Of a stretch of 64,000 nucleotides of DNA, positions 6,945 to 37,308 are shown in pieces. The DNA is taken from the IMG/VR virus record IMGVR_UViG_3300011189_000001, positions 1-64,000 of that record, one strand, 5' to 3'. The notes under the pieces are model-generated. The model saw nothing but the letters and a program-made list of their open reading frames with translations. It had not been told where the DNA came from and ran no database searches. The position numbers and the translations under genes are program-made. The stretch is from a virus. Numbering within the stretch: position 1 is the first letter of the stretch; every line of letters begins with the position of its first letter.

Positions 6945-7370
6945 TTAAGCTACGAAATCATGGAGATCGTACATCTGGATGATATCTTCCACCGCTTTCT
7001 CAAGGAGGCGCTTGTCAAGGCCCTGTGCGAACTCGTCAGCCAATTTATCGGTGTCCCGGAAATGGCGTTCAAATTTGCGCAAAAGAGTACCCGCCCGATC
7101 ACGAGACTCGACCTCTACGGGAAGATCCCACATACGGGCGATTTGTTCGAACTGCTCACGACTTTCACGGTCCCCCACGTATCCCATCAAATTGCTGAGA
7201 GCTTCTGTGGCACCGAGCATTTCCCGGACTTGCGACCACTTGCCCCACGGCCCTGATCGGTAGGCTTCACGGGTATTACTTTCCAGTGCCTTGAGGATAG
7301 GTTGGAGGTGTGTGCGAAGCCCCTTTTTCTTGTTCCCCAACTTGATCAACTGGTCTTTAAGGTCGGTCAT
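6945..7370 (-). CDS. Class A leader protein, helical, unknown function
   Basis: 141 residues. It starts MTDLKDQLIKLG and continues with LRTHLQPILKAL, the class A leader shared by about 13 proteins in this window. The remainder (residues 35-141) is predicted all-helical and charged, with no cysteine and no recognised domain. It lies immediately downstream of the actin-like gene and upstream of the 598-residue virion protein, all on the same strand. Function is unknown; the leader suggests sorting into the virion (inference). Confidence 0.75.
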   Translation of the reverse strand: MTDLKDQLIKLGNKKKGLRTHLQPILKALESNTREAYRSGPWGKWSQVREMLGATEALSNLMGYVGDRESREQFEQIARMWDLPVEVESRDRAGTLLRKFERHFRDTDKLADEFAQGLDKRLLEKAVEDIIQMYDLHDFVA

Positions 7371-7400
7371 AAGATACTCTCACACGGTTAGAGGGATTAA

Positions 7401-9674
7401 TTAAACATATTCTTGCATGGATTGGACCAACAGTCCCTGAGCCACGGAGGTCATGGGGTCGTCGGCTTGTCGAATTTCACTGATCTCAATTGGAAAACGC
7501 TTGCGCTGTTTTTCGAATACTTCCTTGAACAAGTCGAGGAATCCACCGGCCAACGATGTTCCCCCGGACACGATGATGGGGATAGCTTCTTTGAGTTCCG
7601 TGTCATTCTGTGTGTTCTTGAACTGCTTGCCGATATTGTCGAGGGCGTATTTGATCAGTGACTTGTAATAGACAACCAGCGCTTCCTCTTCGCGGCTTTG
7701 AGGGTTCGTGAGGTCTATCCCTTTCTCTTTGATGGAACAGAGGCGGGAAGCGGTCGAACCCACAGCCTTCGAAGCGTTCTGGTCAATCCAGTCGCCGCAG
7801 TTGTGTACGACAGCACCCCACGTCGCGAAAGCATGATGGGATTCTCCAATGGAAATATCATACACATCATCGTCATAGGGGATAGTCTCAACGGAAAGCA
7901 CTTTCCTTTCCGCAAAATGCCCAGAGGGGTACCGCAAAGAGTTGCCCTCCTTGGAAATAAGGGCTCCCAACACGGAAACCGCTACCGCATCTCTGATACG
8001 AACTGTGTAAGAATCCTTACGGCCCTCGATCTGAACTCCTCTTGAGTTTACACCACCTTGCCTTGGATCTCGTTTCTCGATTGTATGCCAGATGCCAAAT
8101 CTATTCAGAAGGTGACTCATGCTGCGGACAAGAGTCTCAGACGTGTTATAAAACTCGAAACCTTTTTCCGTCCGTGACCCGTCACTATCTAATAGACCCT
8201 CTAGTACCCCTACTGCCATCTGATCGGGAATTTCGTGTACAGGAAGCGGGAGGATCTTATCCCCCACCCCATTATAACATTTACTCTTGAGATGGTCTGC
8301 AATCTTATGGTATTCAAGGTTGATAAGATCCATTTCAACCTCAGTCCTAGACACCACAGATGGAAACCGACCAAAGAGGTCGTTAATAACATCTTGGTAT
8401 TTCTGGACCAGTTGTGCATCCTTCCGGTTAAACGCCAAACGAACTCGACCCCCAGAATTGCCCTGTCCGTTCTTATAAAGACAGGTGCTGCCATCCCCTA
8501 AGAACATCCCCAAAAATCTACCCAAGTTGCGAGACTTCGTAACCGTGACATTTTGACCATCTTCCCGGCAAAAATAGTACGAGCTGTGGTTCCCACGGTA
8601 GGGGATACGAGGTACCCCTACGATGTCCCCCTCCCGAGCATCCTGTGCTGCTACCCACTCCCACTGAGCGCCACGGCGAACACTAATTTTGTGATCACCT
8701 GTAACATCAACCGGTGCAAAGGGCAGACCTTCTAGTTGGAGTTGATAAAGTTCTTCACGATGCCCGTTGTTAAATACTTCTAGGACTTCGGTATATGCTC
8801 CGTCCTGACCTAATACCAAGTCACCGGGTCGGATTCCCGAAACTGGTTTCATACCAGAAGGCGTATCAATCGGGAAATCTTTAGACAGGCATCGGGCCAA
8901 CGAAAACTCCATGATCGGCATGGTCATGTACGAAAGGGCGCAGTTGACCATCCCGGAACCGAAGCTAATGCCGATTCCGCTAAAATTGTCGCTAGCGCAT
9001 TCCGAATAAATGATCGCCATCGCCTCGTTGCCCGAAATAGGGTCGTATCCTAGCTCGTCGAGGATCTTTGCGAACACAGCCTCGTGGTACACGACGTCTT
9101 GACCCGGCATATCCAGAGGGGCTGCAGGGATCGAATAGTAGCAAACTTCACCCTCCTCTTGGGGCTTGCCTACCACCTGTTCGATCAAAATCGACAGGAC
9201 TTCGAGCGCATCAATTTCCGAAGAGGAAATCAGACCCTGTGACAAGGGACGCCGAGCTTCCCGCTTAAACAGGTTGGCTGTTTCGATTGCGGGGTCGCCC
9301 AAAATCAGAATGCGATCATCATATTCGATGAAACTAACACCCGACAGCTTGAGCATCTTCTTGGCGTCGATATCGAGGTCAAGGAAAGCATCACGCACAC
9401 GTTTCGTCTCAACCGACGTACCGATCTTACGAGCGGACACAAGGTTCATCGTACCAATGTCCAACCCGATACCCATCTCTGGCTTTTTATCTTCACTCAT
9501 ATCGTCACTCCGATTTTCACTTGACTCCAAAGGTTTATCCAAACCGTACTCCTTTGCCCGTTTACTAATCGTGGATGCGCTGCACCCATACTTGTCGGCA
9601 ATATCAGCATACGACAAACCGGCTTCGAGGTGATATCGAAGGTCGTCACGTGGTATGTCTATGCGCTTTGCCAT
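7401..9674 (-). CDS. HTH-actin-like ATPase (ParM/MreB-type fold) interrupted by an intein
   Basis: 757 residues, made of four parts. Residues 1-48 form a helix-turn-helix (YADIADKYGCSASTISKRAK). Residues 66-261 are the first half of an actin/Hsp70-fold ATPase, with phosphate-1 motif GIGLDIGTMNLVSA and a second Gly-rich motif GIGISFGSGMVN. Residues 262-625 are an intein. Residues 626-757 finish the actin fold, with CGDWIDQNASKAV and the adenosine motif IIVSGGTSLAGGF. Excising the intein restores SLAR-CGDWID, the phosphate-2 loop. No clear ribosome binding site precedes 9674, whereas an internal ATG at 9500 (residue 59) has GGAG seven bases upstream, so an actin-only product from 9500 is likely and the HTH form may be a second product. 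Phage actin-like proteins segregate or position DNA or build cytoskeletons; which applies here is unknown. Confidence 0.88.
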   Translation of the reverse strand: MAKRIDIPRDDLRYHLEAGLSYADIADKYGCSASTISKRAKEYGLDKPLESSENRSDDMSEDKKPEMGIGLDIGTMNLVSARKIGTSVETKRVRDAFLDLDIDAKKMLKLSGVSFIEYDDRILILGDPAIETANLFKREARRPLSQGLISSSEIDALEVLSILIEQVVGKPQEEGEVCYYSIPAAPLDMPGQDVVYHEAVFAKILDELGYDPISGNEAMAIIYSECASDNFSGIGISFGSGMVNCALSYMTMPIMEFSLARCLSKDFPIDTPSGMKPVSGIRPGDLVLGQDGAYTEVLEVFNNGHREELYQLQLEGLPFAPVDVTGDHKISVRRGAQWEWVAAQDAREGDIVGVPRIPYRGNHSSYYFCREDGQNVTVTKSRNLGRFLGMFLGDGSTCLYKNGQGNSGGRVRLAFNRKDAQLVQKYQDVINDLFGRFPSVVSRTEVEMDLINLEYHKIADHLKSKCYNGVGDKILPLPVHEIPDQMAVGVLEGLLDSDGSRTEKGFEFYNTSETLVRSMSHLLNRFGIWHTIEKRDPRQGGVNSRGVQIEGRKDSYTVRIRDAVAVSVLGALISKEGNSLRYPSGHFAERKVLSVETIPYDDDVYDISIGESHHAFATWGAVVHNCGDWIDQNASKAVGSTASRLCSIKEKGIDLTNPQSREEEALVVYYKSLIKYALDNIGKQFKNTQNDTELKEAIPIIVSGGTSLAGGFLDLFKEVFEKQRKRFPIEISEIRQADDPMTSVAQGLLVQSMQEYV
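7800..8891 (-). mobile_element. Intein with LAGLIDADG homing endonuclease
   Basis: 364-residue in-frame insertion, from Cys262 to Asn625 of the actin-like protein. Splicing blocks are visible: block A CLSKDFPIDTPSG...GDLVLG, block B VTGDHKI with the conserved TxxH, and C-terminal blocks VYDISIGESHHAF and GAVVHN followed by the +1 Cys. Both dodecapeptide motifs of a LAGLIDADG endonuclease are present (LGRFLGMFLGDGS with D394, and VGVLEGLLDSDGS with D498), each keeping its acidic residue, so the endonuclease may be active. The boundaries were placed at Cys1, at the terminal HN and at the +1 Cys, and each was checked at codon level. Confidence 0.92.
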
Positions 9675-9680
9675 GATTGG

Positions 9681-10052
9681 TTAAAAGTTGACCGGGGTCT
9701 TGATACCTAGAAGGTCCGCAATCTTAGCTACCTGATTGCGCAACATGTTCGCATCGCTAGGCGGGCGTCCCAGCATATTGTTGAGCCTGTTGAACGCTTT
9801 CTCTTCGCCACCGTCCAACTGAAGCCGATCGGAAAAATGCTTAAAAATGTCTTTGAGCATATCCGCCGTCTGTTCATCCCCACCCTTACGAGCCTGTGAT
9901 CTGAGCTTCCCAAAAGCCCGGAGATCCACGATATCCCGCATCAGATTGAGTTTGGATGTTCGCTGTAGTTCGGCCAAAACCGGACGGATATGTGGGCGAA
10001 GTTCCGGGTTGGTGGACCCGAGGCGAATGAGTTGATCTTTAAGGTCTGCCAT
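9681..10052 (-). CDS. Class A leader protein, short helical
   Basis: 123 residues from an ATG preceded by GGAG (8 bases). It begins MADLKDQLIRLGSTNPELRP and continues HIRPVLAELQRTS, the best example of the class A leader. The body is helical and charged (for example FNRLNNMLGRPPSDANMLRN) without recognised domain, metal site or membrane segment. It lies just upstream of the actin-like gene. Function unknown. Confidence 0.75.
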   Translation of the reverse strand: MADLKDQLIRLGSTNPELRPHIRPVLAELQRTSKLNLMRDIVDLRAFGKLRSQARKGGDEQTADMLKDIFKHFSDRLQLDGGEEKAFNRLNNMLGRPPSDANMLRNQVAKIADLLGIKTPVNF

Positions 10053-10120
10053 CGGCGCAGCTCCGTATATGATTTAGGTACAGATAGGCGTCACAGTAAA
10101 CGGAGCATATAAGTAGATTC

Positions 10121-12990: not shown

Positions 12991-13543
12991 AGTCCACGCA
13001 TTTGAGTGACGACAGTAGTTCAGCGTTCGCTTCGATCTCTATATCAACGGGATGTACCCATTTTTCGGTATCCAACCCGTCGCTCATAACCGAAATGATC
13101 TTAGTGCCATGTGCGGTATAAGGTGAAATCGTCTGTAACAGTTGGCCCATGCTATCCGCAAATTGACGGAAACCTAGATCTAAAAAAATCACATCCGGTG
13201 CTAGCCGCCCACGTAAAAAACCAAGTGACGACACAGTGAGATAAGTCCCACCACCGTTAGGGTAATTGCGCTGAAACTCATCCAACATACTACGGTTTCC
13301 CGCAATTACGGCATGGTCCAAATCAGGTCGTATGTCCCGAAGGAACCTGACGATTGAAGTGGTGTGCCCGCGCTGTCTTCCAAACGAAACATGGAGTACA
13401 TTTTCGTATTCGTAAATGACTCGTTGATCCGTATGGATATTGCTACCCTGTAAATATGCCGAATACGCGGCAATCATTATGTCGGTGGCGTAAGTGCCCG
13501 GAATCCAAGAGGCACGGCCCACCAATCCTCGTTGGATGATCAC
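12950..13543 (-). CDS. P-loop-like protein of the head-tail region
   Basis: 197 residues from a GTG at 13543 that overlaps the stop of the upstream gene (GTGA). A strand-loop HVSFGRQRGHTTS (residues 51-63) has the layout of a Walker A motif, with His in place of the invariant Lys, and DVIFLDLGF (117-125) resembles a Walker B strand. The order, spacing and a middle strand AVIAGN suggest a RecA/terminase-like ATPase fold. Whether it binds nucleotide is doubtful because of the Lys-to-His change. The neighbours are neck and tail-completion proteins, so a role in head-tail joining is possible (inference). Confidence 0.65.
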   Translation of the reverse strand: MIIQRGLVGRASWIPGTYATDIMIAAYSAYLQGSNIHTDQRVIYEYENVLHVSFGRQRGHTTSIVRFLRDIRPDLDHAVIAGNRSMLDEFQRNYPNGGGTYLTVSSLGFLRGRLAPDVIFLDLGFRQFADSMGQLLQTISPYTAHGTKIISVMSDGLDTEKWVHPVDIEIEANAELLSSLKCVDYDIARSQLKTSGQ

Positions 13544-13821
13544 TTTATCATATCCATATCATCGGCTGTTTCCAGAACATTCCTACGGAGGTAAGGATAC
13601 ACGTCCGTATCATCCATGTCGAGATCAAGGCCCGCTTCGTCAAGGGCCTTTTTGAGATTCTCTTTGGCTTTCGTGAAAAACTCTTTAGGGGCATCGTCAA
13701 TGCCGAGTTCTTCGCCAAGGATTTCACCCATCATCTTTTCAACGTCACCGGACGCCTTGTAAGACAAGCGGCGGCCAAAGGCACGAAACGCTACGAGTTT
13801 TGCTAGCTTCAAATTTGTCAT
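13540..13821 (-). CDS. Small class B leader protein, acidic body
   Basis: 93 residues, ATG preceded by GGAG. The N-terminus MTNLKLAKLVAFRAFGRRLS is a divergent class B leader, directly followed by YKASGD, a possible processing site of the [KR]xA[SA] type seen after other leaders. The body is acidic and helical (KALDEAGLDLDMDDTDVYPY). No known domain. It lies between the 440-residue virion protein and the P-loop-like protein. Confidence 0.65.
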   Translation of the reverse strand: MTNLKLAKLVAFRAFGRRLSYKASGDVEKMMGEILGEELGIDDAPKEFFTKAKENLKKALDEAGLDLDMDDTDVYPYLRRNVLETADDMDMIK

Positions 13822-15196: not shown

Positions 15197-15505
15197 TCAC
15201 TTGTTCGAGCAAATCAAGCACCCTTCCCAGATCATTGGCGTTGCCCCAATCGGGGTCACGGCCATTTTTCTGGTCGTAGCGGTGTAGGCTTTTTTCCAGT
15301 CCGCAGGCAACCGGCCTCGCCAAAAACGTTCTTTTTTGGCATGTACATTGTCAGAAGCACCGATTATCCCACCACCCACTTTTTGATCAACAACCGCATA
15401 AAGGGTAGAGCTTGCCAATCTAATTAGAGCAAGGATAGGACGGATATGTGGACGGAGGTCTTTCCGGGAGGCCCCCAATTTTATCAAGCGACTTTCGAGA
15501 TCCAT
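15197..15505 (-). CDS. Class A leader protein, small basic body
   Basis: 102 residues from ATG 15505, chosen over a TTG four codons upstream because GGAG sits six bases before this ATG and the leader then starts at residue 1: MDLESRLIKLGASRKDLRPH, then IRPILALIRLASS. The body is basic and Gly-rich (VGGGIIGASDNVHAKKERFW) and ends CLICSNK. No domain recognised. A strong hairpin terminator lies just upstream (15521-15558), so this gene may start a new transcript or depend on read-through. Confidence 0.7.
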   Translation of the reverse strand: MDLESRLIKLGASRKDLRPHIRPILALIRLASSTLYAVVDQKVGGGIIGASDNVHAKKERFWRGRLPADWKKAYTATTRKMAVTPIGATPMIWEGCLICSNK

Positions 15506-18142: not shown

Positions 18143-18421
18143 TTAGCCCCCCAAGTCACTAACGTGTCGCTTGAGGTTTCGGATGTGATCTTTAAGCTCG
18201 TCTTTCAGACGCCGGGCGTTTTGGAGGTCGCCTTCGGTGTTAATCTCACCGACCACGCCTCTGATTTCAGCATCCACGTCCTGAAGGGTCTTGATCAACT
18301 TCTTGACCCGGCCCGGAGTTACCGCTTCCCTATCCAATTCAGCTAGGATAGGACGGAGGTGGGGACGTGATTCTTCACGGTACACGTTCAATCCAATAAG
18401 TGCGTCTTTTAGATCAGACAT
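18143..18421 (-). CDS. Class A leader protein, small helical
   Basis: 92 residues. It begins MSDLKDALIGLNVYREESRP and continues HLRPILAELDREA, a clear but divergent class A leader (G and L kept, RPHLRPILAEL kept). The body is a charged helical segment (RVKKLIKTLQDVDAEIRG; DELKDHIRNLKRHVSDL), probably a coiled coil. It follows the next class A gene by only three bases. Function unknown. Confidence 0.7.
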   Translation of the reverse strand: MSDLKDALIGLNVYREESRPHLRPILAELDREAVTPGRVKKLIKTLQDVDAEIRGVVGEINTEGDLQNARRLKDELKDHIRNLKRHVSDLGG

Positions 18422-18424: not shown

Positions 18425-18748
18425 TTAGACCCCGTAATTGTTTTTCAGGTACCGCAAAGACTCTTTGGTATCCTTCAGGACCAGTTCCAACTGATCACGG
18501 AGGGTTTCCGCTGCTAAGTCTTTGCTGGGTCCGTCGTCCTCACGGATAAGCCCCTGAACAGCATCATCAAACGTACCGTCCAGTTCCTGTGATGCCCGAT
18601 CCATCTTGGATAGGAGGCGATCCATTTTACGGGAAATGGCTGCTTCCTTTTGAAGCTGTGCCAAGACCGGTCGGATATGATCCCGAAGGTCCGGGCGGTC
18701 CGTCCCTAGTTTGATTAAGTCATCCCGAAAGGAATTCTTATCGCTCAT
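18425..18748 (-). CDS. Class A leader protein, coiled coil (alternative upstream start at 18877)
   Basis: 107 residues from ATG 18748, which has GAGGA eight bases upstream and places the leader at the N-terminus (SFRDDLIKLGTDRPDLRDH, then IRPVLAQLQKEA). The same frame stays open to an ATG at 18877, adding 43 residues with two Cys and many Pro (ECHGPVEDQPSYCPALPRG); that start has only a weak ribosome binding site. The body is a charged coiled coil (SRKMDRLLSKMDRASQEL). Another class A gene with an upstream in-frame extension lies at 28878-29276. Confidence 0.7.
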   Translation of the reverse strand: MSDKNSFRDDLIKLGTDRPDLRDHIRPVLAQLQKEAAISRKMDRLLSKMDRASQELDGTFDDAVQGLIREDDGPSKDLAAETLRDQLELVLKDTKESLRYLKNNYGV

Positions 18749-24348: not shown

Positions 24349-25359
24349 TCAGGAGATCATGTGAGCGCAGTTGTAAAGACCATCGGCTACAGAATCATAG
24401 CCTAATGCCTTAACTGTGTGTCCAAGCCAACCTATAGAATTAGCCGCTGTCGGGACGAGATCTTGGGGGTTTTCATCAAAGGCGGCCCTAAAGACTTCAC
24501 ACGCATTGATGAGTTCGCGGGCGTCCACCATCGCTTCAACCCACTTGATCGTTTTTTGGGGAACACCGTTGACCAGTAAAAGCAATTTTTGACGCACCAA
24601 GGAAGCTACGTCGTGGAGTCCAGCATGATCTAGGAAAGTTGCTAGTGTGTGGGTTCCAAAAGTGAACAGCGCCCACCGCACGTCCTCCGAATCCGGCATG
24701 GTATCGGAGATCGTGTATAGAAGGGTGCGGGCGTCTTCAGCGAGGTCCATGTCCTTTACGGCAGCCGTCACCGAAGAGTGCATGGTGCCCATATCCAGAT
24801 CACCGTTACCAAATGGCCGAACCAAACGACGGGCCTTCAAAAAGTCACCGTCTAGGTATTCGATCCAACCAAACACGTTGGTAGGGTTCTTGAGCTTTTC
24901 CTCGGCGAAACCCTCTTGGGTAAATTTGGCGTGCCGCATTCCGATCGCATTCACGAAACCGGCATTCAGAGTGAGTGTGATATCACTTTCGAATTCATCG
25001 TCACTTGGGGCTACGCGCACGTCCATATAGAAACGCGGGGCAAGGGGTTCCGTGGTGTCTTTCAGGACAATGTATTTAGAAACCACATTGTACTGGACCC
25101 CATCCCCACGTTCCAACGCCGACTCTTCGAAATCGACCTTCCGTCCAATTGCTTGATAGAGGTACATTTCGTATTCACGACGAAACCCTCTGATCTTTTT
25201 GCTCAGACGCTCCGCCTGTTTTTGCAAGGCGTTCATGCGTCTACGGCTATCACCCTGCAGGTTGCAATTAGACATAGCACGGCGCACACACCCCTCAAGC
25301 TCCTTGCGAAGTTGGGGGTGCGAATACGCCTGTTGTGCTAGCTGGTCAAGATCACTCAT
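24349..25359 (-). CDS. Unknown protein with degenerate class A leader
   Basis: 336 residues. MSDLDQLAQQAYSHPQLRKE follows the class A layout (helix, then P-x-L-R) but lacks the LIRLG core. A basic helical stretch follows (RRRMNALQKQAERLSKKIR), then a beta-rich region (FYMDVRVAPSDDEFESDITL) and a helical C-terminal half (LLYTISDTMPDSEDVRWALF; HTLATFLDHAGLHDVASLVR). It overlaps the upstream gene by one base. No known domain; possibly a packaged protein. Confidence 0.65.
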   Translation of the reverse strand: MSDLDQLAQQAYSHPQLRKELEGCVRRAMSNCNLQGDSRRRMNALQKQAERLSKKIRGFRREYEMYLYQAIGRKVDFEESALERGDGVQYNVVSKYIVLKDTTEPLAPRFYMDVRVAPSDDEFESDITLTLNAGFVNAIGMRHAKFTQEGFAEEKLKNPTNVFGWIEYLDGDFLKARRLVRPFGNGDLDMGTMHSSVTAAVKDMDLAEDARTLLYTISDTMPDSEDVRWALFTFGTHTLATFLDHAGLHDVASLVRQKLLLLVNGVPQKTIKWVEAMVDARELINACEVFRAAFDENPQDLVPTAANSIGWLGHTVKALGYDSVADGLYNCAHMIS

Positions 25360-26237
25360 TAAGCGGTCTCGTGCATTAGTTTCTCGTACTCACGCTCCCA
25401 ACCGGACGGGCGGCTACCCATCACGCCGAGATAAAGGAGGGTACCCTTTTTCGGGCTGTAAGCACGCCACTTCGAAGTCCGCTGTTGCGGGTTGATCTTG
25501 AAGTAGAAGTTGCCTTGCTTGCTGTAGGCAGCCATCTGGGGAACACCGGAGTAGTAATAAGGTACTCGGTCTTCACCAACCTGATCACCGCGCTCGATGT
25601 AGTTCTCTACCTCTTGCATCGCTTCTTGTGTGGGCGGACGCTCCTTGGAACTGAAATAAATCATCTCCAACATCCGGCCACTGCTTTTCATGTCGTAGCT
25701 GGAATCATCCTTGTAAATACCCACGCCTCGGGCTTTCATCGCATCTGGAATGCGCACAGGTGCTCCGCTCCCGAATTGAACAAGCGCATCTCCGTGATCA
25801 CTATCATCGCTCAGAGACGAATCTTCACGGGGCGTCTTTACGACGGTACCAACCTTCTGGTCAAACTTCTTGTAGATATCCATCGTATGGCCGATCTTGT
25901 GCTTCTTCGCTTTGATCTTGACCATATCGCCCACCTGAAAACGGGGGCCGCCACGCGATTGCGACGCAGGAGCCCGAGTTTCCAGATTGAAAGTACGCTC
26001 CAGCATATCCTGTGCATCCTTTTCCGACACTGGACTACGTTTCTGGGTCAGCGTAACCCAGTTGATGAAACGCACCGTATCTTCCGAATATGCAATCTTG
26101 TTCCGGGAAGCTACACGGGTTTGGCGCATCTCCGCATAGATGGAATCCAGAACAGGACCCCAATCTTCACGGAGATCCGGGTTCTTAGAAGCGAATTTCA
26201 ACAGACCGTCATACATGTTAGGCAGGTAAAGCGACAT
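25359..26237 (-). CDS. Unknown protein with class A-like leader and SH3-like middle
   Basis: 292 residues, ATG with AAAGGAG upstream. MYDGLLKFASKNPDLREDWG (from residue 8) is a class A-type leader followed by PVLDSIYAEMRQTRVASRNK, where TRVASR could be a processing site. Residues about 100-165 (FQVGDMVKIKAKKHKIGHTM) resemble an SH3/KOW-like beta barrel. The C-terminal half is alpha/beta, with AYSKQGNFYFKINPQQRTSK. It lies between the Dps-like gene and another leader protein. No enzyme motif. Confidence 0.65.
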   Translation of the reverse strand: MSLYLPNMYDGLLKFASKNPDLREDWGPVLDSIYAEMRQTRVASRNKIAYSEDTVRFINWVTLTQKRSPVSEKDAQDMLERTFNLETRAPASQSRGGPRFQVGDMVKIKAKKHKIGHTMDIYKKFDQKVGTVVKTPREDSSLSDDSDHGDALVQFGSGAPVRIPDAMKARGVGIYKDDSSYDMKSSGRMLEMIYFSSKERPPTQEAMQEVENYIERGDQVGEDRVPYYYSGVPQMAAYSKQGNFYFKINPQQRTSKWRAYSPKKGTLLYLGVMGSRPSGWEREYEKLMHETA

Positions 26238-26248: not shown

Positions 26249-26809
26249 TTATTGGGTTCTTTGTCTCAGAAGGTAAACAGCGGTTTCATGGTCGCTGGCT
26301 AGGGCCATAATAAAATCGTCCATCCCAAGGGAAAGCGTACCCATTTCATCTAAGAAAGTGTACAGGTCCTTGAGCATGATCTGGAAGTCCTCTTCGGCGG
26401 CCAATGATCGGGTAAGGTAATGGTCACTTCGCTTTTCCCAATCGTTGATATAAAAAGACATGTGGGCTAGTTGGCTTGCAGGGTCAATCGACCCGGCCCC
26501 ATACATAGACGTAATCTTTTCAGCCAGAGTATCCATCTCATCATCCACGGCTTCGTACAGACGCTGCAGCAACAGATGATCACCGTAGTAAGGATCACCA
26601 TGCGCGTTCCAATGTCCGTTTTGATGCACCACCTGAAGGGCACGGAGCATCGCCAAGGTATCCAATAAGGCTTCCAAGGATTCGTGGCTAGGTTCCGGCT
26701 GAGTCTCAGAGCGGAAATCGAGCTTGAGGACCTTCAGGAGATCCTCTTGTAGCTTGGGATTTTCGTAAGCGAACCGAATGATTCGCTCACGCAAAGGGTG
26801 TTCCGACAT
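26249..26809 (-). CDS. Dps-like ferritin with class A-like leader
   Basis: 186 residues, ATG with GGAG upstream. Residues 1-32 are a leader (HPLRERIIRFAYENPKLQED then LLKVLKL). The body is a four-helix ferritin-like domain. The Dps ferroxidase ligands appear at canonical spacing: H66 (in NGHWNAHG), H78 (GDHLL), D93 and E97 (DDEMDTLAEKI), i.e. offsets 12, 15 and 4. In Dps the site lies at a subunit interface and oxidises Fe(II) with peroxide while the dodecamer protects DNA. The leader replaces the usual basic N-terminal tail. It may protect or compact packaged DNA, or be delivered to the host; both are inference. Confidence 0.85.
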   Translation of the reverse strand: MSEHPLRERIIRFAYENPKLQEDLLKVLKLDFRSETQPEPSHESLEALLDTLAMLRALQVVHQNGHWNAHGDPYYGDHLLLQRLYEAVDDEMDTLAEKITSMYGAGSIDPASQLAHMSFYINDWEKRSDHYLTRSLAAEEDFQIMLKDLYTFLDEMGTLSLGMDDFIMALASDHETAVYLLRQRTQ

Positions 26810-28188: not shown

Positions 28189-28874
28189 TAGCCCATCTCG
28201 CTAATCATGATGGATGCAACCTTCTTGGCGAGGGCTTGCGTCCCTTGATTATCTTTGAGCTTACCCACCACTTTCGTGTCGCTTTGTAAAATCAACCGTG
28301 CGCCGTCGTAGTACAGCGTAAAGAACCCTGCGCGGAAACCGTTGCCCGTACTAGGGTCTTCTTCGTAAAAGACTACGGACGCCTCGTGGTAGCCGTCACG
28401 GCGTCTGGAGGTGTCTACACCATCGTCCTGTACGTTCGCATCCTGCGAAACCTTTTTCACGACCTCTTTGGCTGCGACATACAGTACGTCGTGTAGGTAC
28501 TCCGCGATCAGCGAAGCCGGTCCTCCGGGCATGGCTGTCTTGACCGAAGCGTTTCGTTGCTTTGCAAGAGGGCGTACAGAATCTTCACGCACGATGCGAT
28601 AGGGGCTATCCGCATCGAACTGTACGGGAACCTTGCCGCTGTTCAGGGAATCAACCCCGTGCATACCCCACAGATCAGCGGGAGGTACCCATGCCGACAT
28701 CCAAGTACCTCGGGTGATCTCCGCTTCTGCCCAACCACCACGCCAAGAACGACTTGGACCTTCCCAATACGGAAGGCCGTTTACTCTTTTGGCGGCCAGC
28801 AACTGTCGGATATGCGGGCGTAGGGCTTTGTTAGATGCCCCCAAACGAATCAACTTGGTATACAGATCAGCCAT
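28185..28874 (-). CDS. Class A leader protein with Trp-rich middle
   Basis: 229 residues. It begins MADLYTKLIRLGASNKALRP, HIRQLLAAKRV, a class A leader. The middle is rich in Trp and Gly (PYWEGPSRSWRGGWAEAEIT, TRGTWMSAWVPPADLWG). The C-terminal part has a helix (AEYLHDVLYVAAKEVVKKV) and a beta segment (RAGFFTLYYDGARLILQSDT). No known domain. The terminal beta/alpha part resembles in layout those of other class A proteins (28878, 35451). It converges with the plus-strand operon. Confidence 0.7.
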   Translation of the reverse strand: MADLYTKLIRLGASNKALRPHIRQLLAAKRVNGLPYWEGPSRSWRGGWAEAEITRGTWMSAWVPPADLWGMHGVDSLNSGKVPVQFDADSPYRIVREDSVRPLAKQRNASVKTAMPGGPASLIAEYLHDVLYVAAKEVVKKVSQDANVQDDGVDTSRRRDGYHEASVVFYEEDPSTGNGFRAGFFTLYYDGARLILQSDTKVVGKLKDNQGTQALAKKVASIMISEMGY

Positions 28875-28877: not shown

Positions 28878-29276
28878 TTATCCTAATTTCTTTACGGTTT
28901 TGACAATGCCTTGCACCACGTGGGCATCCCGGTGCGTATCCAAATAGTAATCACCCCAACTCTCGTCCTTCATATACCGATCCCGATCATCTCTGTATTC
29001 GGCCATGAGGTCCCCTTTACGATCGAGGAAAAGATGGACCGTAAAGGTTTCGGGGCCAGAACCACTAATCGTGTGGACCAGTAAATGATCCTCATGTCGG
29101 TTAACGAAAAAGCCGATACGATCAAGGGCTGTCCACACCTCTTTAAGGATACCTTCGATGCGCCGTGCATCCATTCCAGAACCTGTACGCTCCAGTGCAT
29201 GGATGATGGACTTCAGGTGGGGTCGTAGGTCTTCGTGAGAGGCCCCCAGCTTGATTAATTGGTCTTTTAGGGACAC
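28878..29276 (-). CDS. Class A leader protein (alternative upstream start at 29408)
   Basis: 132 residues from a GTG at 29276, preceded by AAGGAGG, which places the leader at the start: SLKDQLIKLGASHEDLRPH, then LKSIIHALERTGS. The same frame extends to an ATG at 29408 that also has AGGAG, adding 44 residues with two Cys (CLLDTRRNKRDDCPQYEEH). Both starts look usable, so two products are possible. The body is alpha/beta, with RIEGILKEVWTALDRIGFFV and FTVHLFLDRKGDLMAEYRDD. No domain recognised. Confidence 0.7.
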   Translation of the reverse strand: MSLKDQLIKLGASHEDLRPHLKSIIHALERTGSGMDARRIEGILKEVWTALDRIGFFVNRHEDHLLVHTISGSGPETFTVHLFLDRKGDLMAEYRDDRDRYMKDESWGDYYLDTHRDAHVVQGIVKTVKKLG

Positions 29277-30214: not shown

Positions 30215-31102
30215 TTATCGCTGGACAACCAAGCGGACGAGGCCGCGTGGGTTGAATGCTCCGATACCGAGGTTCTCGAATACAGAGAAACCGATCGTGC
30301 GGGCACGAGGGTTGTCTGCGGAGAGCACGGTAAGCTCAGTACGGACGGGGATACGTCCGAACATCTCAGGCTCGCAACATACGTATACGAAACCTGCGGG
30401 GACGAGGCGGCTCAGGATGATCTGGGCTCCCCAAAGGGTAGCCTGAAGACCGGTCTTGAGCAGGGTAGCCTGCGTCTCGATGTCGAGGATCTCACGACCG
30501 AACTTACGGATGTCCGCATAGTCCTTGGCGTGCATGTAGATTCGAGCAACACGAAGGTCGTGCTTTTCGATCTCGGCGAAGGCATCGGCCAGAACAGCGG
30601 AACTGATCGGGGCAATAACCTGAAGGTCAGGGTTGACCTGTCCGGGGATCGAATCGAATCCGTTCGTAGCAATCGAATCCAGAACGGCGAAGACACGCTC
30701 GTCTTCCGCTGCCTGAATCTGAGCTTTTGCAAGCTGCTGTGAACGCTCGATGAGGTCGAAGCGACGTTCCTTGATCTGCGTGATCGGAATCTCCGGGTTC
30801 GAAGCAATCTCGAACAAGGGGAAGATCACACGACGAGGCTTGGTGATAGCGAGAATGTTCTCGCCTTCTTCACCGACCACATAAGCGGTCACGTCGGGGT
30901 CTTTATCGTAGATCGGCAACGCTCCGTCAGGAAGTTGCTCGACTAAGAATGTGCGGCGTCCAACTGCCGAATAATCTCGGCGGCTGCGAAGCGGTTGGAT
31001 CATCGAAGCAGCAAGTCTAGCTCGCCCTGCGGCGGTCTTGATGTGCCGACTAATGATCTCTTGCTTGGCCGCGTTATCCAATTGCGTGGTGTTGTCAGAC
31101 AT
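30215..31102 (-). CDS. Major capsid protein (HK97 fold)
   Basis: 295 residues, ATG with AAGGAG upstream. The N-terminal region contains a helix with IISRHIKTAAGRARLAASMI then QPLRSRRDYSAVGRRTF, followed by LPDGALPIYDKDPDVTAYVV, the pattern of major head proteins of large myoviruses. The A-domain-like C-terminus has VARIYMHAKDYADIRKFGRE and ENLGIGAFNPRGLVRLVVQ. Length agrees with compact HK97-type subunits. It is flanked by a decoration candidate, an acidic scaffold and the prohead protease, in standard capsid order, and is followed by a strong terminator. N-terminal cleavage near KTAAG is possible but unproven. Confidence 0.9.
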   Translation of the reverse strand: MSDNTTQLDNAAKQEIISRHIKTAAGRARLAASMIQPLRSRRDYSAVGRRTFLVEQLPDGALPIYDKDPDVTAYVVGEEGENILAITKPRRVIFPLFEIASNPEIPITQIKERRFDLIERSQQLAKAQIQAAEDERVFAVLDSIATNGFDSIPGQVNPDLQVIAPISSAVLADAFAEIEKHDLRVARIYMHAKDYADIRKFGREILDIETQATLLKTGLQATLWGAQIILSRLVPAGFVYVCCEPEMFGRIPVRTELTVLSADNPRARTIGFSVFENLGIGAFNPRGLVRLVVQR

Positions 31103-31825: not shown

Positions 31826-33379
31826 TTAGTTTCCGAAGACCTTGGATACGTCGGGAGCACTATCCCACAGCTTCGACAAACCATCGTCGCCCGTGGAAGA
31901 AGCCTCTTTCACCCGCCCGAGTTGTGATACTCCTTTACTACCTTTTGAAGCCTTTTTGCCCTGCTGTCCGTCTACCGAATAGTGACGGTTCATAAGGGCC
32001 TGAAGCGTAGCATCGTCCTCTTCGAGGAGAGCTTCTGCATCCAGATTGTCAAGGGAAGGCTCAAGATCAATACCGATCTCAGAAGCTTCGCTTGCACCTG
32101 CTCCGTGGTCCATGTCGTTAAGCATGGCGTCGAGATCTTCATCAAGCATCTCGTCGGCGGCGATATCATCGCCCATGTCCATACCCATGTCGCCACAAGC
32201 ATCAGCATCCATGTCCTCATCGTCTTCGTCCTCTTCGGACCGACGCTGCATGTCACGGAGTGTTTGCTGTAGAACCGGGTTGGCTTGAAGATCGATGCCT
32301 GCTTCCGCCATTAGATCGGCGAGCATGGACTCCTTGTCGGCGTCCTCATCATCCTCATCGGCGTCCTCGTCGTCCGAAGCATCCTTCGCTTCGTCTTCTT
32401 CGGCGTCGTCCTCATCTTCCTCGTCGTCTTCGGCAACCTTGGGCTGCTGTCCGAACATACGAGCAAGTTCTTGGGCGATCGCTTCGCGAACGCTGGACTC
32501 TTTGGACTCTTCTTCGTCCTCATCGTCCTCATCATCCGAAGCGTCCTTCGCTTCGTCTTCTTCATCATCATCCGAAGCATCCTTCGCTTCGTCTTCTTCC
32601 TCGTCCTCATCTTCTTCGGCAACTTTGGGCTGTCCGAAAAGTTTGGCGAGTTCTTCGGCGACCATCTGACGAACGCTGGCTTCTTTTCCTTCGCCTTCGT
32701 CGTCTTCATCGTCGTCGTCATCATCCGAGGCGTCTTTAGCCTCATCTTCGTCAGCATCCTCATCGTCCCCTTCTTCTTCGGCCATCATGACGCGAAGCAT
32801 TTCATCGGGACTCAGGGAAGCTTCTTTATCCTCGCCACCTTCGTCGTCGCCTTCCTCGGCGTCTTCTTCAGCGATGCGTTCCAGTAGCTCAGAAAGCCGA
32901 AGGGAAGTTGCAACCACTGCGTCGTCGGGAAGAGGCATAAGGTCAAGGGCCTGCTCGGCGATCACATCGTCACCAGCTTGCGGAAGAATAGCCTGTGCGA
33001 TACGAACGCACTGAAAGGCTTTCTTATCGAAGTAACGCTGCATCTTGGCGAGACGAACCTTGGCCTCACGTCCGTCCAGCTTATCGCCGGGACCAAACGT
33101 GTCGCCGTTGTCGTATGCATCACCGCTATTCCACGCATCCACGTCCTTATGGTCGTGTGTGGTGTCTAGCATGTCAGGCATACCAAGTTCATTACGTTCT
33201 GTTCCGTCGAGATCCTCAAGATCATCAACGGGTTCCTCTGCCCATACTGCCGGATCGCCAATCATGTAGTCCTCTGTGGGTACATGAGTACGATCTTGGT
33301 TCATTGTGTACGGATCGGCGTTCTTACGACGTTCCGCTTGACGGCGGCGGGCTTTCCACGAGAGTCGATCTCTACTCAT
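31826..33379 (-). CDS. Highly acidic internal scaffold / core protein candidate with repeats
   Basis: 517 residues, ATG after TGGAGG. N-terminal basic region (SWKARRRQAERRKNADPYTM), then a helical part, then a long Asp/Glu-rich region with repeated units: KEASVRQMVAEELAKLFGQP, its near copy KESSVREAIAQELARMFGQ, and KDASDDxE/D blocks repeated five times. The C-terminus has a Met/Asp-rich stretch (ACGDMGMDMGDDIAADEM) and a basic linker GKKASKGSKG. Extreme acidity, repeats and location between protease and capsid fit an assembly scaffold removed by proteolysis. The repeated KEAS/KDAS sites could be protease sites (inference). Confidence 0.75.
   Translation of the reverse strand: MSRDRLSWKARRRQAERRKNADPYTMNQDRTHVPTEDYMIGDPAVWAEEPVDDLEDLDGTERNELGMPDMLDTTHDHKDVDAWNSGDAYDNGDTFGPGDKLDGREAKVRLAKMQRYFDKKAFQCVRIAQAILPQAGDDVIAEQALDLMPLPDDAVVATSLRLSELLERIAEEDAEEGDDEGGEDKEASLSPDEMLRVMMAEEEGDDEDADEDEAKDASDDDDDDEDDEGEGKEASVRQMVAEELAKLFGQPKVAEEDEDEEEDEAKDASDDDEEDEAKDASDDEDDEDEEESKESSVREAIAQELARMFGQQPKVAEDDEEDEDDAEEDEAKDASDDEDADEDDEDADKESMLADLMAEAGIDLQANPVLQQTLRDMQRRSEEDEDDEDMDADACGDMGMDMGDDIAADEMLDEDLDAMLNDMDHGAGASEASEIGIDLEPSLDNLDAEALLEEDDATLQALMNRHYSVDGQQGKKASKGSKGVSQLGRVKEASSTGDDGLSKLWDSAPDVSKVFGN
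32374..32750. repeat. Degenerate in-frame repeats inside the acidic scaffold gene
   Basis: A 27-base unit (ccgaagcatccttcgcttcg followed by tcttctt) occurs at 32374-32400, 32536-32562 and 32572-32598, with a diverged copy from 32724. It encodes the KDASDD element. The intervening sequence holds two copies of the longer KE(A/S)SVR..A.ELA..FGQ unit. Low-complexity GAC/GAA-rich DNA surrounds it, so slippage is likely. Confidence 0.8.
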
Positions 33380-33540: not shown

Positions 33541-35061
33541 TTAGTTAAGAAATTTAGCCCTTTCGAGCAAAATTCCTGCTTCTCGGCGGTTTATCTTACG
33601 GCCAAGCGACCGTATACATGCCTTCAAAAACTGTCGAAGATCACCATAATTGCTGGCGCTTCCGACCTTTTGAAGACTCAGATAAAACTCTGGGGGTAGG
33701 GATTCTCGTTTACCGTCTCGGTCGTGCAGGTACATTGCTGTTACAATGTCTGTATTCGCGAACCGGTGCTTGTGTTTGAAAAAGGTGTTTGGATCTTGAA
33801 GCATGTAAAGAATGCGGAACGCATTTTTGGTACGGCCACCCAACTCATTAGCGTACCTTTCCGCAAAAATCATATATGAATGGTGTACCGAATCGTTGGG
33901 TGCGCGTTCAGCTTCGGGCATTGCATTGGGTTCTTCTTGCTCGCGAAGCTCTTCTTTCAACTCTTTTTCAATACGCTTTTTGATCTTTTCTTTCAGCTTG
34001 TCCGACACATCGTCGATCAAACCCACTTCTTCCTCGACCTCCTCTTCGACCTCTTCCTCTTCGAAGTCGTCAAACGCTTGACGCTGAGCAAAGCTATTGA
34101 ATGCCGACGATACGGCCTCGTTCACTTCGGTCCTGATCTGAGCGCTTGCGGTCTTTAGGAAATACTTGGTCCAATCCTCAGTGGGATTGACCGTGGATTT
34201 AGTGTGTGCCTCTTGGATCAAGCTCTGTAGCTTATCTTCTTCATACGGCGTCGGCTCTTTGGTCGACGGCTTGTTCAGATCAAGGATGTTGCGCATGACC
34301 GCCCCTTTGAATGCGGGGTTGCCTACCCAAGATGCCTCGATGAACTTAACAGACTCAGGGTCCGTGTGGTGGCCGCACAGTTCAGCGACAACGCGGATCT
34401 TACCTTCCGGGCCGATGAACTTGTTACCCTTCTCATACTTGACGTGGTGGCAAAGCTGTGGCTCGTCAATGGCTACGTTGCCGCACTTGGTGCAAGCCGA
34501 AAAAGCAATCGTGCATCCCATCGAAAGGGTGTTAAGCTCCCCCGATTCGATCTTAGCTACCAGATCCTTGTGCTTGCGGTCCGTAGCGACGAGAATGTCG
34601 ACGTACACGCTGTCCCCGAGATCACGGGCAACGGCGTCGATAATTTTGCCCTTGCTTAGTTCCGGGATCTGGATATGCTCTACATAGTTCTCGGCTCCCA
34701 CAAACGTCTTGTATGTAGACAAGAGTAGTTTGCGCTCCCAAGCATCGCCGTTCTGGTTGATGTACTTGGAGCAGCCGGGCTTGATCAGATAGTCCGTATA
34801 CGGTCTATTGATCGTATGCCCATCATCGGTCGTAACCTCACCCGTCTTGCTGTTAGGGGCCTCGTCAACGTCCACAGAGGCGATAATAGTGCAGTGGGTA
34901 AGGAGGTACTTATCCGGGCTGTAGTTCTCGATCGAAATGGCAGATGTACGGCTACCAAAGTCAACCCCCGCAAGGAGCTTGCTTTGCCGATACGTGTTCC
35001 ACCCCTCAAGTCCTACACGGGGCGACTGAACAACTGCGTTAGCGTATTTTACAAAAGCCAT
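33541..35061 (-). CDS. Prohead maturation protease with zinc site and C-terminal extension
   Basis: 506 residues. The protease domain spans about 100-260: His129 in ENYVEHIQIPELSKGKI, with IDAVARDL after it, and Ser180 in ESGELNTLSMGC, the His/Ser pair of the T4 gp21/herpes-type maturation protease clan. A Cys/His set (C190, C193, C204, H205) follows the Ser and probably binds zinc. After a Glu-rich linker (EEEEVEEEVEEEV) a C-terminal helical domain ends in KINRREAGILLERAKFLN. Such proteases cleave scaffold and capsid proteins. Position before the scaffold and capsid agrees. The KTASAQ site (about 309) may be an autocleavage point. Confidence 0.85.
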   Translation of the reverse strand: MAFVKYANAVVQSPRVGLEGWNTYRQSKLLAGVDFGSRTSAISIENYSPDKYLLTHCTIIASVDVDEAPNSKTGEVTTDDGHTINRPYTDYLIKPGCSKYINQNGDAWERKLLLSTYKTFVGAENYVEHIQIPELSKGKIIDAVARDLGDSVYVDILVATDRKHKDLVAKIESGELNTLSMGCTIAFSACTKCGNVAIDEPQLCHHVKYEKGNKFIGPEGKIRVVAELCGHHTDPESVKFIEASWVGNPAFKGAVMRNILDLNKPSTKEPTPYEEDKLQSLIQEAHTKSTVNPTEDWTKYFLKTASAQIRTEVNEAVSSAFNSFAQRQAFDDFEEEEVEEEVEEEVGLIDDVSDKLKEKIKKRIEKELKEELREQEEPNAMPEAERAPNDSVHHSYMIFAERYANELGGRTKNAFRILYMLQDPNTFFKHKHRFANTDIVTAMYLHDRDGKRESLPPEFYLSLQKVGSASNYGDLRQFLKACIRSLGRKINRREAGILLERAKFLN

Positions 35062-35091
35062 TGGATCACCAATTTGGTTTAAGCCTGTCTA

Positions 35092-35454
35092 TTAGCGGCC
35101 TGTCTTATCAAGAAGATCGTAAAAAGCGCCTTTTAAGGCATTCTTGCGGATCCCCGCCAATTCCTCACCGCCACGTAGATTATCAAAATGGATAGACATG
35201 GTTAGCGCATCGGGGGGATCTACATCTTCCTCCAACCGGACCTCTACCCATTTTGCATTAAGATCTTCGTGCGAAACACGAACGTGATCCCAACCAACGC
35301 TTTGAATGTACCAGCCGTCCCTTTTCAAATCGGAGGCAAGTTTTTTATACGTCGAATGATCAACAGCGGCGAGCAGGTACCGGAGGTGCTTACGCAATTT
35401 CGGCTTAGATTTGCCCAACTTGACCAGTTGATCTTTCAGGTCCATAGTGGTCAC
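35092..35454 (-). CDS. Class A leader protein
   Basis: 120 residues from a GTG at 35454, or 117 from ATG 35445 where the leader begins exactly: MDLKDQLVKLGKSKPKLRKH, then LRYLLAAVDHS. The body is alpha/beta: YIQSVGWDHVRVSHEDLNAK, VEVRLEEDV, and ends IRKNALKGAFYDLLDKTGR. The start overlaps the stop of the upstream class A gene by four bases. Similar beta segments in 28878 and 35451 suggest the bodies may be remote relatives (inference). Confidence 0.7.
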   Translation of the reverse strand: MTTMDLKDQLVKLGKSKPKLRKHLRYLLAAVDHSTYKKLASDLKRDGWYIQSVGWDHVRVSHEDLNAKWVEVRLEEDVDPPDALTMSIHFDNLRGGEELAGIRKNALKGAFYDLLDKTGR

Positions 35455-35867
35455 GTCATGAAATTGGAAAGCGAATCGTTGATCTTGTCGAAAAGGTCTT
35501 CGAGCGACTCGTGTTGACCGGTTTCGAACTTAATAAACTGTGCGTCCTGAAAAGACGTCCCTGCATGAAGCGTCGTTTCGATCTCGTAAGCACTGCCTCG
35601 ATGAACAATGTCAAATTTTAGCCGCCACGTGAAATGGCTCCGACTGCCTTCGATGTACCCTAGATCCTTTTTCGTAATCGTAGTTTTATAGTCAAAGCTC
35701 TCGACGAAATTATCGGTCAATTCCTGCAGGAATTGGTTCCTGACGAAATCGAAAATCCGCACATCGAGCGTGCTAAGGTTGGTAGCTAGTTTAACTAGTG
35801 GTAGTAGGCGTGATCGTCTGGAAGGGCTTCTATAGGCCAGTCGGATGATACTGTCGCGTAAACTCAT
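35451..35867 (-). CDS. Class A leader protein
   Basis: 138 residues from ATG 35867 (GAGG seven bases upstream), preferred over a GTG 15 bases earlier. The leader is more divergent: MSLRDSIIRLAYRSPSRRSR, LLPLVKLATN. The body is alpha/beta with IFDFVRNQFLQELTDNFVES, FTWRLKFDIVHRGSAYEIET and a C-terminal helix EDLFDKINDSLSN. Adjacent to two more class A genes (35092 and 36646), forming a cluster. Function unknown. Confidence 0.7.
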   Translation of the reverse strand: MSLRDSIIRLAYRSPSRRSRLLPLVKLATNLSTLDVRIFDFVRNQFLQELTDNFVESFDYKTTITKKDLGYIEGSRSHFTWRLKFDIVHRGSAYEIETTLHAGTSFQDAQFIKFETGQHESLEDLFDKINDSLSNFMT

Positions 35868-35885
35868 CCGTCTGCCTCGCAATCA

Positions 35886-36656
35886 TTATAGCCACTCGTT
35901 AAATGCTTTCGCCGGGTCCGATACACTAGGACTCCATCCAAGCTGTTCCTCCGCCTCTTCACGGGCTGCATCATCGAGCGAGTCGAGGATGTCCGCTGGC
36001 TTAATCAAGAACAGGCATTCCCGGCACGCATAGAGCTTCGTCCACTTTTTGTAGATCGTTTGCTCTAGCTCAACGCTCTTGCACCGGGGACAATGAAAAC
36101 ATCCGGTATCCAACTCCTGTTGCGTAGGCACGTACTGGCGTCCTTTCTCTTTCCAGTACATTGCTTTACGAATTTGTTCAGGAGCTTCGAAAGCCGTCTT
36201 CACGGCATGTTTGATCTCGAAATCCGAAAACTCGCCCATATACCGCTTGTAAATCGTGTGGTACGTATCCATCTGCTCAATGCCTTGCTCACAAAAGTGA
36301 TTGGCAGTGAGATAAAGGTGGGATACGCGCTGGCGGTAATGGCGGGCTAGGCTTTTAGCTAAGTCGTGTGAACACATGGCGGTTCTTTGATCTTGATCAT
36401 CCATGAATTCTACCGGGTCATCGGGACCGTCTTCAGCACCCGGTGTTTCAGCCGGTGCCAACTCTTCGGGGGTGATACGTTCGTTACCCCACCCGAAATC
36501 TACATCGACAAACCCAATGCCTCGGTGGACTTTCGTCACTACGCCAACATGGGGGGATCTCCGCATCCGGTGCGGATCCACATAATACACCCGGTCCCCA
36601 ACTTCGAATCGGGTAGCCAGTTGCTGGTGGTCTATGAAAGATCGCTTACCGGTCAT
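35886..36656 (-). CDS. SH3-like and zinc ribbon protein
   Basis: 256 residues from ATG 36656 (AGGGA upstream; a TTG 12 codons earlier is less likely). Residues about 15-65 form an SH3/KOW-like barrel (FEVGDRVYYVDPHRMRRSP, VGVVTKVHRGIGFVDVDFGW). A helical middle follows, then a zinc ribbon with C-F-H-C-P-R-C and YACRECLFLI. The combination resembles small nucleic-acid binding adaptors. It overlaps the tail of the upstream class A gene by 11 bases. Family not recognised. Confidence 0.65.
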   Translation of the reverse strand: MTGKRSFIDHQQLATRFEVGDRVYYVDPHRMRRSPHVGVVTKVHRGIGFVDVDFGWGNERITPEELAPAETPGAEDGPDDPVEFMDDQDQRTAMCSHDLAKSLARHYRQRVSHLYLTANHFCEQGIEQMDTYHTIYKRYMGEFSDFEIKHAVKTAFEAPEQIRKAMYWKEKGRQYVPTQQELDTGCFHCPRCKSVELEQTIYKKWTKLYACRECLFLIKPADILDSLDDAAREEAEEQLGWSPSVSDPAKAFNEWL

Positions 36657-37308
36657 TGAGAAGTCCCTGTCGTCGTTGACGCCATCGACCAAAATCCTTA
36701 TCCTTCAGGTGACGGAAAGGGGACATCGACTGGATGAACATGTCAGCAGCCGATAATGTCGAATCCCTTCCCCCGGAAGCCATAAAGTTGATATCGTTGA
36801 CCGTATCCGTCACAGATAGAGGGTTTCGAACAACCACTCGGTAACGCATTTTCGAAGACGAACTGCCCACATGATCTTTAACCATCACATCAACAGCGAA
36901 TTCGGACGCTACCCATTCTTCCGGGTCGGTCGAAAAGTATTCTGGCTTCCCGACCTTGACCGTTAGGCCATACGACCCAAGCTCTTTGCCGCCTCCTTCG
37001 AGGAAAACATAGAACTCACGTGCCGCTTTTCGCACATGCGTCAAGATACGTTCGTTCAGGGATACGAATTCGGCAAAAGCCTCATCGTACCTTTCCGTCC
37101 CGATCGCATCTTTCCACCGTGGATCACGAGTATCCGTAACCCAATCAACCTCCATACGCTCATTGATGAGCGTACCGACCATTTTCGCCTCTTGTGTAGC
37201 AACGGACCCCAGCGCCTTAATGGCCAGCTTCCGAAGAAGCAGGCGCAAATGCGGGCGCAAATTAGGGTTCGCCGATCCAAGGCGAATAAGTCGGTCACGA
37301 AGGTTCAT
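36646..37308 (-). CDS. Class A leader protein, larger body
   Basis: 220 residues from ATG 37308 (AGGTGG upstream). Upstream in-frame extension to 37419 is rejected because it overlaps the next gene. Leader: MNLRDRLIRLGSANPNLRPH, LRLLLRKLAIKALG. The body is alpha/beta: FAEFVSLNERILTHVRKAAR, SYGLTVKVGKPEYFSTDPEE, KMRYRVVVRNPLSVTDTVND, with a Ser/Gly-rich ASGGRDSTLSAAD and a basic end. No known domain. Located in the run between portal-proximal genes and the protease. Confidence 0.7.
   Translation of the reverse strand: MNLRDRLIRLGSANPNLRPHLRLLLRKLAIKALGSVATQEAKMVGTLINERMEVDWVTDTRDPRWKDAIGTERYDEAFAEFVSLNERILTHVRKAAREFYVFLEGGGKELGSYGLTVKVGKPEYFSTDPEEWVASEFAVDVMVKDHVGSSSSKMRYRVVVRNPLSVTDTVNDINFMASGGRDSTLSAADMFIQSMSPFRHLKDKDFGRWRQRRQGLLNDR

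Follow-up and report, generated by a model that had tools for sequence, protein, structure and literature searches.

The window analyzed here comprises 64,000 bases (positions 1–64,000 of the 120,529-base virus record IMGVR_UViG_3300011189_000001 in IMG/VR) and encodes a peptide tag of about 30 residues that recurs on unrelated proteins. This tag is modular, is independent of position within the protein, and shares a K-x-A|[SAG] signature (the bar marks the proposed cut) with proteins of the phage head. On balance we favor the view that it is a removable capsid-loading module, which would be cut by the prohead protease and would act like the capsid-targeting sequence (CTS) of phage T4, while being larger and position-independent; both packaging and cleavage are predicted here from sequence patterns. 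The major capsid protein (MCP) of the record matched that of LR745208 (an uncultured phage of 485 kb) at 82%, that of the isolate Tunturi_5 at 47% and that of Bacillus phage G at 39%, and this kinship to huge phages makes it probable that the record is part of a huge-phage genome.

The initial annotation, prepared from the sequence alone, reported 13 genes in the window whose products begin with this element. A profile of these 13 N-termini, run against 947 open reading frames (ORFs) of at least 40 amino acids taken from the record in four pieces, recovered the 13 together with four ORFs that had not been in the seed, all at E≤3.5e-12; the next match had an E-value of 1.1. The annotation had proposed searching the rest of the genome in this way, and four further copies were thus added in the 120.5-kb record, at record positions 78218–78913, 89027–89449 and 89470–90183 (minus strand) and 104011–104457 (plus strand). 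A second profile, built from 140 tags all of which came from other phages, was run on the same ORFs and returned 15 of them at E≤1e-3, namely 11 of the 13 noted leaders and the same four unseeded ORFs, whereas the lowest E-value among 20 shuffled ORF sets was 0.038. Since the 140 tags had been gathered with alignment A1 (25 tags, nine from the window, also used for the whole-record searches below), the sequences of this second profile are independent of the window but their selection is not wholly so. Twelve of the 13 reported genes are therefore supported, 11 by the other-phage profile and one (gene 25359–26237, hereafter 26237) through its homologues, and one (gene 24349–25359, hereafter 25359) is unconfirmed.

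All 13 tags of the window lie on the minus strand. The other-phage profile matched the tags at 7278..7370 (gene 6945–7370, E 1.6e-9), 9960..10052 (gene 9681–10052, E 6e-14, helix-break-helix in its model), 15419..15505 (gene 15197–15505, E 1.7e-8, followed by RLA|S), 18644..18733 (gene 18425–18748, E 7e-9, followed by KEA|A), 26711..26800 (the Dps-like gene 26249–26809, E 4.5e-6), 28791..28874 (gene 28185–28874, E 1.5e-6), 29187..29273 (gene 28878–29276, which has a GTG start, E 2.6e-6), 35356..35448 (gene 35092–35454, E 4.9e-6, followed by KKLA|S), 35778..35867 (gene 35451–35867, E 4e-8, followed by KLA|T) and 37222..37308 (gene 36646–37308, E 5e-11). The weakest confirmed tag, at 18326..18421 (gene 18143–18421, E 9e-4), matched A1 at the DNA level in its second half only and at the protein level over the whole tag (E 4e-4). 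For gene 28878–29276, a longer ORF extending to 29408 contains NKEA|S just upstream. The diverged tag of gene 26237 (26130..26219) reached an E-value of 0.36 with this profile and was placed by alignment with the homologues L033 and L106, both of which carry a clear tag at the same place. The claimed diverged tag of gene 25359 (25270..25359) had an E-value of 1.8; its four listed matches were an identical copy in L005, a protein with a marginal tag in L007 (E 6e-2) and two tagless proteins. A purine-rich triplet resembling a Shine-Dalgarno sequence was found upstream of 11 of the 13 starts by a very loose test, the exceptions being 18421 and 35454.

The consensus of the tag is LRSKLIRLAHxNPELRPHLLPLLKxA. 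Among 187 copies from 171 clusters (179 tagged proteins merged at 70% identity, after exclusion of ORFs without an upstream stop inside the locus), the conserved positions were L4-R5, I9-R10-L11-A12, P16-x-L18-R19, L22-L23-P24-L25-L26 and K27-x-A29-[AG]30, with K27 in 47%, A29 in 40% and [AG]30 in 40% of the copies; conservation ended after residue 30. When a 45-residue tag peptide of the window was modeled together with 61 tags, helices were predicted at residues 4–14 and 16–44 with a break at residue 15, at a mean predicted local distance difference test (pLDDT) score of 88.7. Where the initial annotation described a helix of about 32 residues, the model contains two helices rather than one. 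Similarly, a model of protein 26237 (seven sequences, whole-model mean pLDDT 72.8) placed the tag helices at residues 4–18 and 20–44 and had low confidence at residues 40–49, which include a K-I-A. With regard to position, 149 of the 187 copies were N-terminal, 27 internal and 11 C-terminal, and a protein carried up to three. The term N-terminal leader used in the initial annotation is therefore too narrow, as internal and C-terminal copies are found in related phages.

The borders of the tag provide an indication of how it may be processed. The K-x-A idea arose from viewing the same sequences, so that all counts given for it are post hoc; the protein sets are separate, and all were examined afterwards. 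Copies with fewer than eight residues in the flanking interval were omitted, so that the after-tag test covered 147 of the 149 N-terminal copies and 2 of the 11 C-terminal ones. Of the 147 N-terminal copies, 51 are followed by K-x-A-[SAG] at a distance of no more than 11 residues, compared with 40 of 2980 control windows from the same proteins. Of the 27 internal copies, nine had it behind the tag and nine ahead of it (control, 1–2%), and C-terminal copies had it before the tag in 4 of 11 (control, 0). When all patterns of the form X.Y[SAG] were ranked, K.A came first after tags (60 seen vs 6.1 expected) and before internal or C-terminal tags (15 vs 2.1), and was 73rd of 173 in the bodies. Patterns S.E, A.E and G.E, which were not tested as sites of their own, were absent among the top patterns listed for the after-tag, before-tag and scaffold-position sets. 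In the lineage of the window, [KR].A[SAGT] occurred within 24 residues after 9 of 17 tags (control, 4%). Besides, in the 26237 family K-x-A was present at the N-terminal junction in all six homologues that span it, even where the tag had moved; the L007 homologue starts later.

The same signature was found in head proteins. Genes for a portal, a head maturation protease, an acidic scaffold-position protein, a decoration-position protein, the MCP and the large terminase surround the tagged genes, the names scaffold and decoration being given by gene position only. The MCP (30215..31102, minus strand; phrog_2522, E 8e-51) has the N-arm IKTA|AGRARLAA|S, and the head maturation (prohead) protease is encoded at 33541..35061 (minus strand; phrog_18299, E 1.8e-13). 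Between the protease and the decoration and MCP genes, an acidic protein that by position is probably the scaffold (31826..33379, minus strand) contains eight K-x-A|[SAG] sites against 0.67 expected, part of which is explained by its repeated DEAKDASDD blocks. In the scaffold-position family, K.A ranked first of all patterns (90 seen vs 14.4–14.6 expected) and did so as well without the lineage of the window (75 vs 12.3). The MCP family had 62 K-x-A[SAG] sites where 10.4 were expected, an excess that we put down to the N-arm, and [ILV]KT[AP] lay within the first 60 residues in 56 of 65 family members. The protease of the window has an FLKTA|S site at residue 303 (34144..34155, minus strand), in the stretch that joins the catalytic domain to the C-terminal part, and a single site of this or a similar kind at residues 299–307 was seen in the near relatives L004, L006, L007, L008, L009 and L034. 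No excess of K-x-A[SAG] was detected in the decoration-position family (2 vs 8.6 expected), the large terminase TerL (0 vs 2.7) or the portal-adjacent family (30 vs 32.9). For the isolate Tunturi_5, the scaffold-position protein gp332 had 8 sites vs 1.5 expected and gp328, annotated as a DNA ejection protein, had 12 vs 2.2; in phage G, the capsid decoration protein gp26 had one. The occurrence of K-x-A|[SAG] at tag borders, in the scaffold-position family, in the N-arm of the MCP and in the linker of near-relative proteases fits processing by the prohead protease.

A scheme in three steps would account for these patterns. During prohead assembly the helical tag would dock on the inner core or scaffold and bring its protein into the head. 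After closure, the prohead protease would cut K-x-A|small sites at the tags and in the scaffold, which would remove the tags and the scaffold and leave mature cargo with the DNA. Finally, if the T4 and P1 analogy is followed, ejection of the genome would carry the cargo into the host. In such a scheme an N-terminal tag would need a site after it, a C-terminal tag a site before it and an internal tag sites on both sides, and internal tags in multidomain proteins would let one precursor yield several effectors. We also put forward, quite tentatively, a more far-reaching version, in which the tag is a position-independent, self-removing code attached at either end of effector domains or between them, some 10–20 different proteins are loaded per virion, and multidomain precursors are cut at K-x-A| by the prohead protease inside the head into separate injected effectors; this would be a counterpart of polyprotein maturation, and its module possibly came from the tail of the portal-adjacent protein.

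Several observations weigh against the removable loading module. The strict site borders only about one third of N-terminal copies, or 62 of 147 if K or R is allowed, and in the lineage of the window not even [KR].A is found within 24 residues of the tags of genes 10052, 28874, 29276 and 26809. HSA|S and HAA|S, which have no K, stand before the C-terminal tags in L038 and L040. Pattern L.E[SAG] ranked second after tags (31 seen vs 4.1 expected), hence some tags may instead be cut in a T4-like manner at L-x-E|A, and part of the after-tag signal may stem from helix structure. The protease linker site is missing in many distant members and also in L011. Site excess over shuffled sequences extended to families 35886 (33 vs 9.7), 44932 (25 vs 9.3), 21322 (19 vs 9.0), 37334 (42 vs 25.7) and 20366 (4 vs 0.6). 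Four phage G proteins encoded between the protease and the MCP (gp20, gp21, gp24 and gp25) have no K-x-A[SAG] site, and the MCP of this phage has no K-T-A. Four records of 286–416 kb with a related MCP had no tag match in the A1 search, and some Dps relatives near the MCP are untagged. Tagged genes were also scattered in several other records, and position in a head cluster was for this reason dropped as general evidence.

Among the other explanations considered, the tag might be a permanent docking or oligomerization domain of an inner-virion body, whose structural core proteins are joined by helix packing and keep the tag. The confident two-helix model agrees with this, and C-terminal and internal copies would be easily accounted for. 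It also draws on the large portal-adjacent protein, which ends in a tag-like segment in 10 of 26 relatives (profile match, 97.9% probability; the 10 ends were chosen by eye). The window copy of this protein (37825..39933, minus strand) lacks such an end, and some relatives from tag-poor phages have one. However, nine of the 10 ends are themselves directly preceded by K-x-A, and a retained domain leaves unexplained why K-x-A|[SAG] lies on the body side of every tag class and also in the scaffold-position family. Some of the tagged bodies, moreover, match enzyme-like or DNA-binding families, and we consider permanent docking unlikely. The portal-adjacent ends may have a different meaning, in that the module may derive from the C-terminal tail of this core protein.

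Alternatively, the tag could work in the infected cell, for example in localization or partner binding, rather than in packaging. The scatter of tagged genes noted above speaks for such a role. On the other hand, 13 of the 17 copies in the phage of the window (12 of 16 without gene 25359) lie at 7–37 kb around the head genes, and their signature recurs in the scaffold-position family, in the N-arm of the MCP and in the protease linker of close relatives. We regard this as a rather improbable explanation.

The claim that the tag is a module on unrelated bodies was upheld; no family covers more than 3 of 91 tagged proteins. These 91 proteins (set A2) are 90 of the 98 tagged proteins, with eight omitted, plus gene 25359, and they were compared with Pfam, PHROG and NCBIfam at E≤0.001. 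In the body family of gene 26237, the tag is N-terminal in L033 and L106 (diverged in the window) and very C-terminal in L038 and L040. Among Dps bodies, that of the window is tagged at the N-terminus, that of L012 has its tags behind the Dps part, and those of L006, L034, L060, L096 and L111, together with a short one from L007, are untagged. Although several tagged genes adjoin, as in 28185/28878 and 35092/35451, divergence of one gene family beyond recognition save at the N-terminus is rejected as highly implausible, given bodies tagged at either end, bodies with and without a tag, multiple tags per protein and matches of bodies to unrelated families. Tagged genes are accessory. In 30 tag-poor loci of at least 17 kb, a label that is based on the tag counts themselves, the MCP, decoration-position, protease and 35886 genes were each present in 30/30, whereas of eight tagged window genes (25359 included) seven were found in 0/30 and Dps in 1/30.

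Within the collections searched, all confirmed tags came from viral records, among them huge-phage relatives with the MCP found here. When IMG/VR was scanned with an MCP pattern, 518 matches were obtained, 506 of which encode relatives, and the best 80 loci were retained; a second scan used the tag without regard to the capsid, and 82 of the 102 stretches that it gave were confirmed, forming 75 loci. Whole records were searched for 57 of the 80 MCP loci and for 30 records behind the 75 tag loci. With A1, matches were found in 11 of 20 records and in 17 of the 40 records of a second set (several of these 17 with one weak match each), with a maximum of 22 in one record; phage G and Tunturi_5 had no tag match in this search. 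Among the matches listed, 12 of the 30 tag-locus records had an MCP match, including all four of at least 200 kb; eleven of these matches were at 80–84% identity and one was weak and partial. The remaining 18 had no MCP match among those listed, and four of them were 100–181 kb long. Records G009 and G011 (behind L066 and L075) share most of their tag set, in a different order, and are apparently one phage type with different ends; records are therefore not equal to lineages. Among the matches listed, one copy, G063:C1:69417-69509, is read through with one in-frame TAA, which may reflect decay or another cause.

In 84,980 prokaryotic species genomes, a pattern-limited scan gave 86 matching stretches, none of which was confirmed as a tag. 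When two tag peptides were compared by tblastn with 50,697 named phage records, convincing matches were obtained in LR745208.1 only; two Achromobacter rows at E 2 were judged to be chance. The tag profile matched PDB sequences at best with an E-value of 0.031 over 15 residues, and only short chance-like helices were found. Comparisons with Pfam, PHROG, NCBIfam and PDB thus gave no single known functional domain behind the motif; the initial annotation had named the finding of such a domain, unrelated to packaging, as contrary to its proposal. The literature searched, which was largely open-access, contained no description of the tag.

Most of the tagged bodies examined match no known family in Pfam, PHROG or NCBIfam. 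The Dps-like body proposed earlier was recovered, in that gene 26249–26809 matches phrog_3636 (E 8e-13) and NCBIfam Dps (E 1e-8, below the cut-off of that family). Other tagged proteins include a DUF3293 protein with an additional SAM-lyase match (L101), a WGR protein (L114), a ParBc_2 match (L109) and an LPD1 match (L107), the SAM-lyase, ParBc_2 and LPD1 matches being below Pfam cut-offs. SAM lyases have an anti-restriction role, and LPD domains are linked to polyvalent proteins. ParB domains are described in such proteins (PMC5512222). These bodies would fit injected cargo. For the body of gene 26237, a fold search found nothing at E≤0.001 and gave weak SH3/Tudor-like and nitrile-hydratase-beta matches.

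Three further features of these loci were noted. A second N-terminal motif, approximately (L)ARRVAxxYLxxAS (the class B leader), is present on unrelated window proteins at 10121–11554, 13540–13821, 16053–16496, 16507–16974, 22148–23224, 48058–48648 and 48930–49211 (all minus strand; the last is a weak match). Its carriers include an enzyme of the poly(A)-polymerase type and a protein that weakly resembles ParB, and by eye [KR]-x-A-[SG] follows the motif in 3 of 7. Another small module, resembling FPTQEALDKYLKEHPDADKSKHxV, was found in nine ORFs, five of which are tagged, in some cases directly behind the tag (L012:17358-19100, L106:14451-14876, L188:2690-5284, L160:5801-6616 and L099:3495-4559). 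Finally, window positions 7401–9674 (minus strand) encode an actin-like protein (Pfam Volactin, E 1e-70) with an apparent LAGLIDADG intein inside and an N-terminal helix-turn-helix match.

If loading and clipping are true, the tag would amount to a cargo-loading code that the virus can reuse for its effector proteins. It would provide a sequence handle for finding which of the many uncharacterized huge-phage proteins are carried by the particle and reach the host first, predict the specificity of the protease in the lineage of the window, and offer a portable loading module for protein delivery by phage particles. As most of the examined bodies match no family, it would also lead to a sizeable set of injected effectors that have yet to be studied.

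Among the closest known systems is that of T4. Its internal proteins carry short N-terminal capsid-targeting sequences that are cleaved by the prohead protease (gp21), whose consensus is L/I-x-E|. Common to both systems is a short shared sequence on different proteins of one phage (here 15 ORFs, and 171 clusters overall); its removal by the head maturation protease would be a further likeness. In contrast to the T4 CTS, the tag is a helix-break-helix of about 30 residues with up to 22 matches per record, 38 of its 187 copies are internal or C-terminal, and the presumed cut is at K-x-A| rather than L/I-x-E|. The tag thus appears to act like a CTS without being confined to the N-terminus, and we keep it apart from the T4 family. 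The CTS of T4 IPIII is described as sufficient for targeting foreign proteins (PMC9024508). Like phiKZ and SPN3US, the phage of the window encodes a head maturation protease. The cleavage motif in those phages is S/A/G-x-E. According to the accessible part of one account, several SPN3US head proteins have propeptides of 20–254 residues that are removed by the protease, with eight N-terminal substrates and a C-terminal propeptide on the protease itself, and the phage ejects head proteins; unlike here, that part mentions no shared module on unrelated cargo (PMC10052503). In P1, an N-terminal signal brings DarB, an anti-restriction protein, into the capsid and does the same for a reporter (PMC9024508); this signal is described there for at least one protein. 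The polyvalent proteins of Iyer et al. (2017) are multidomain and predicted to be packaged and injected (PMC5512222), and two tagged proteins resemble them through the weak ParBc_2 and LPD1 matches. Their processing is attributed in that source to built-in metallopeptidases, whereas the K-x-A-bordered tags described here suggest that the prohead protease would do this work.

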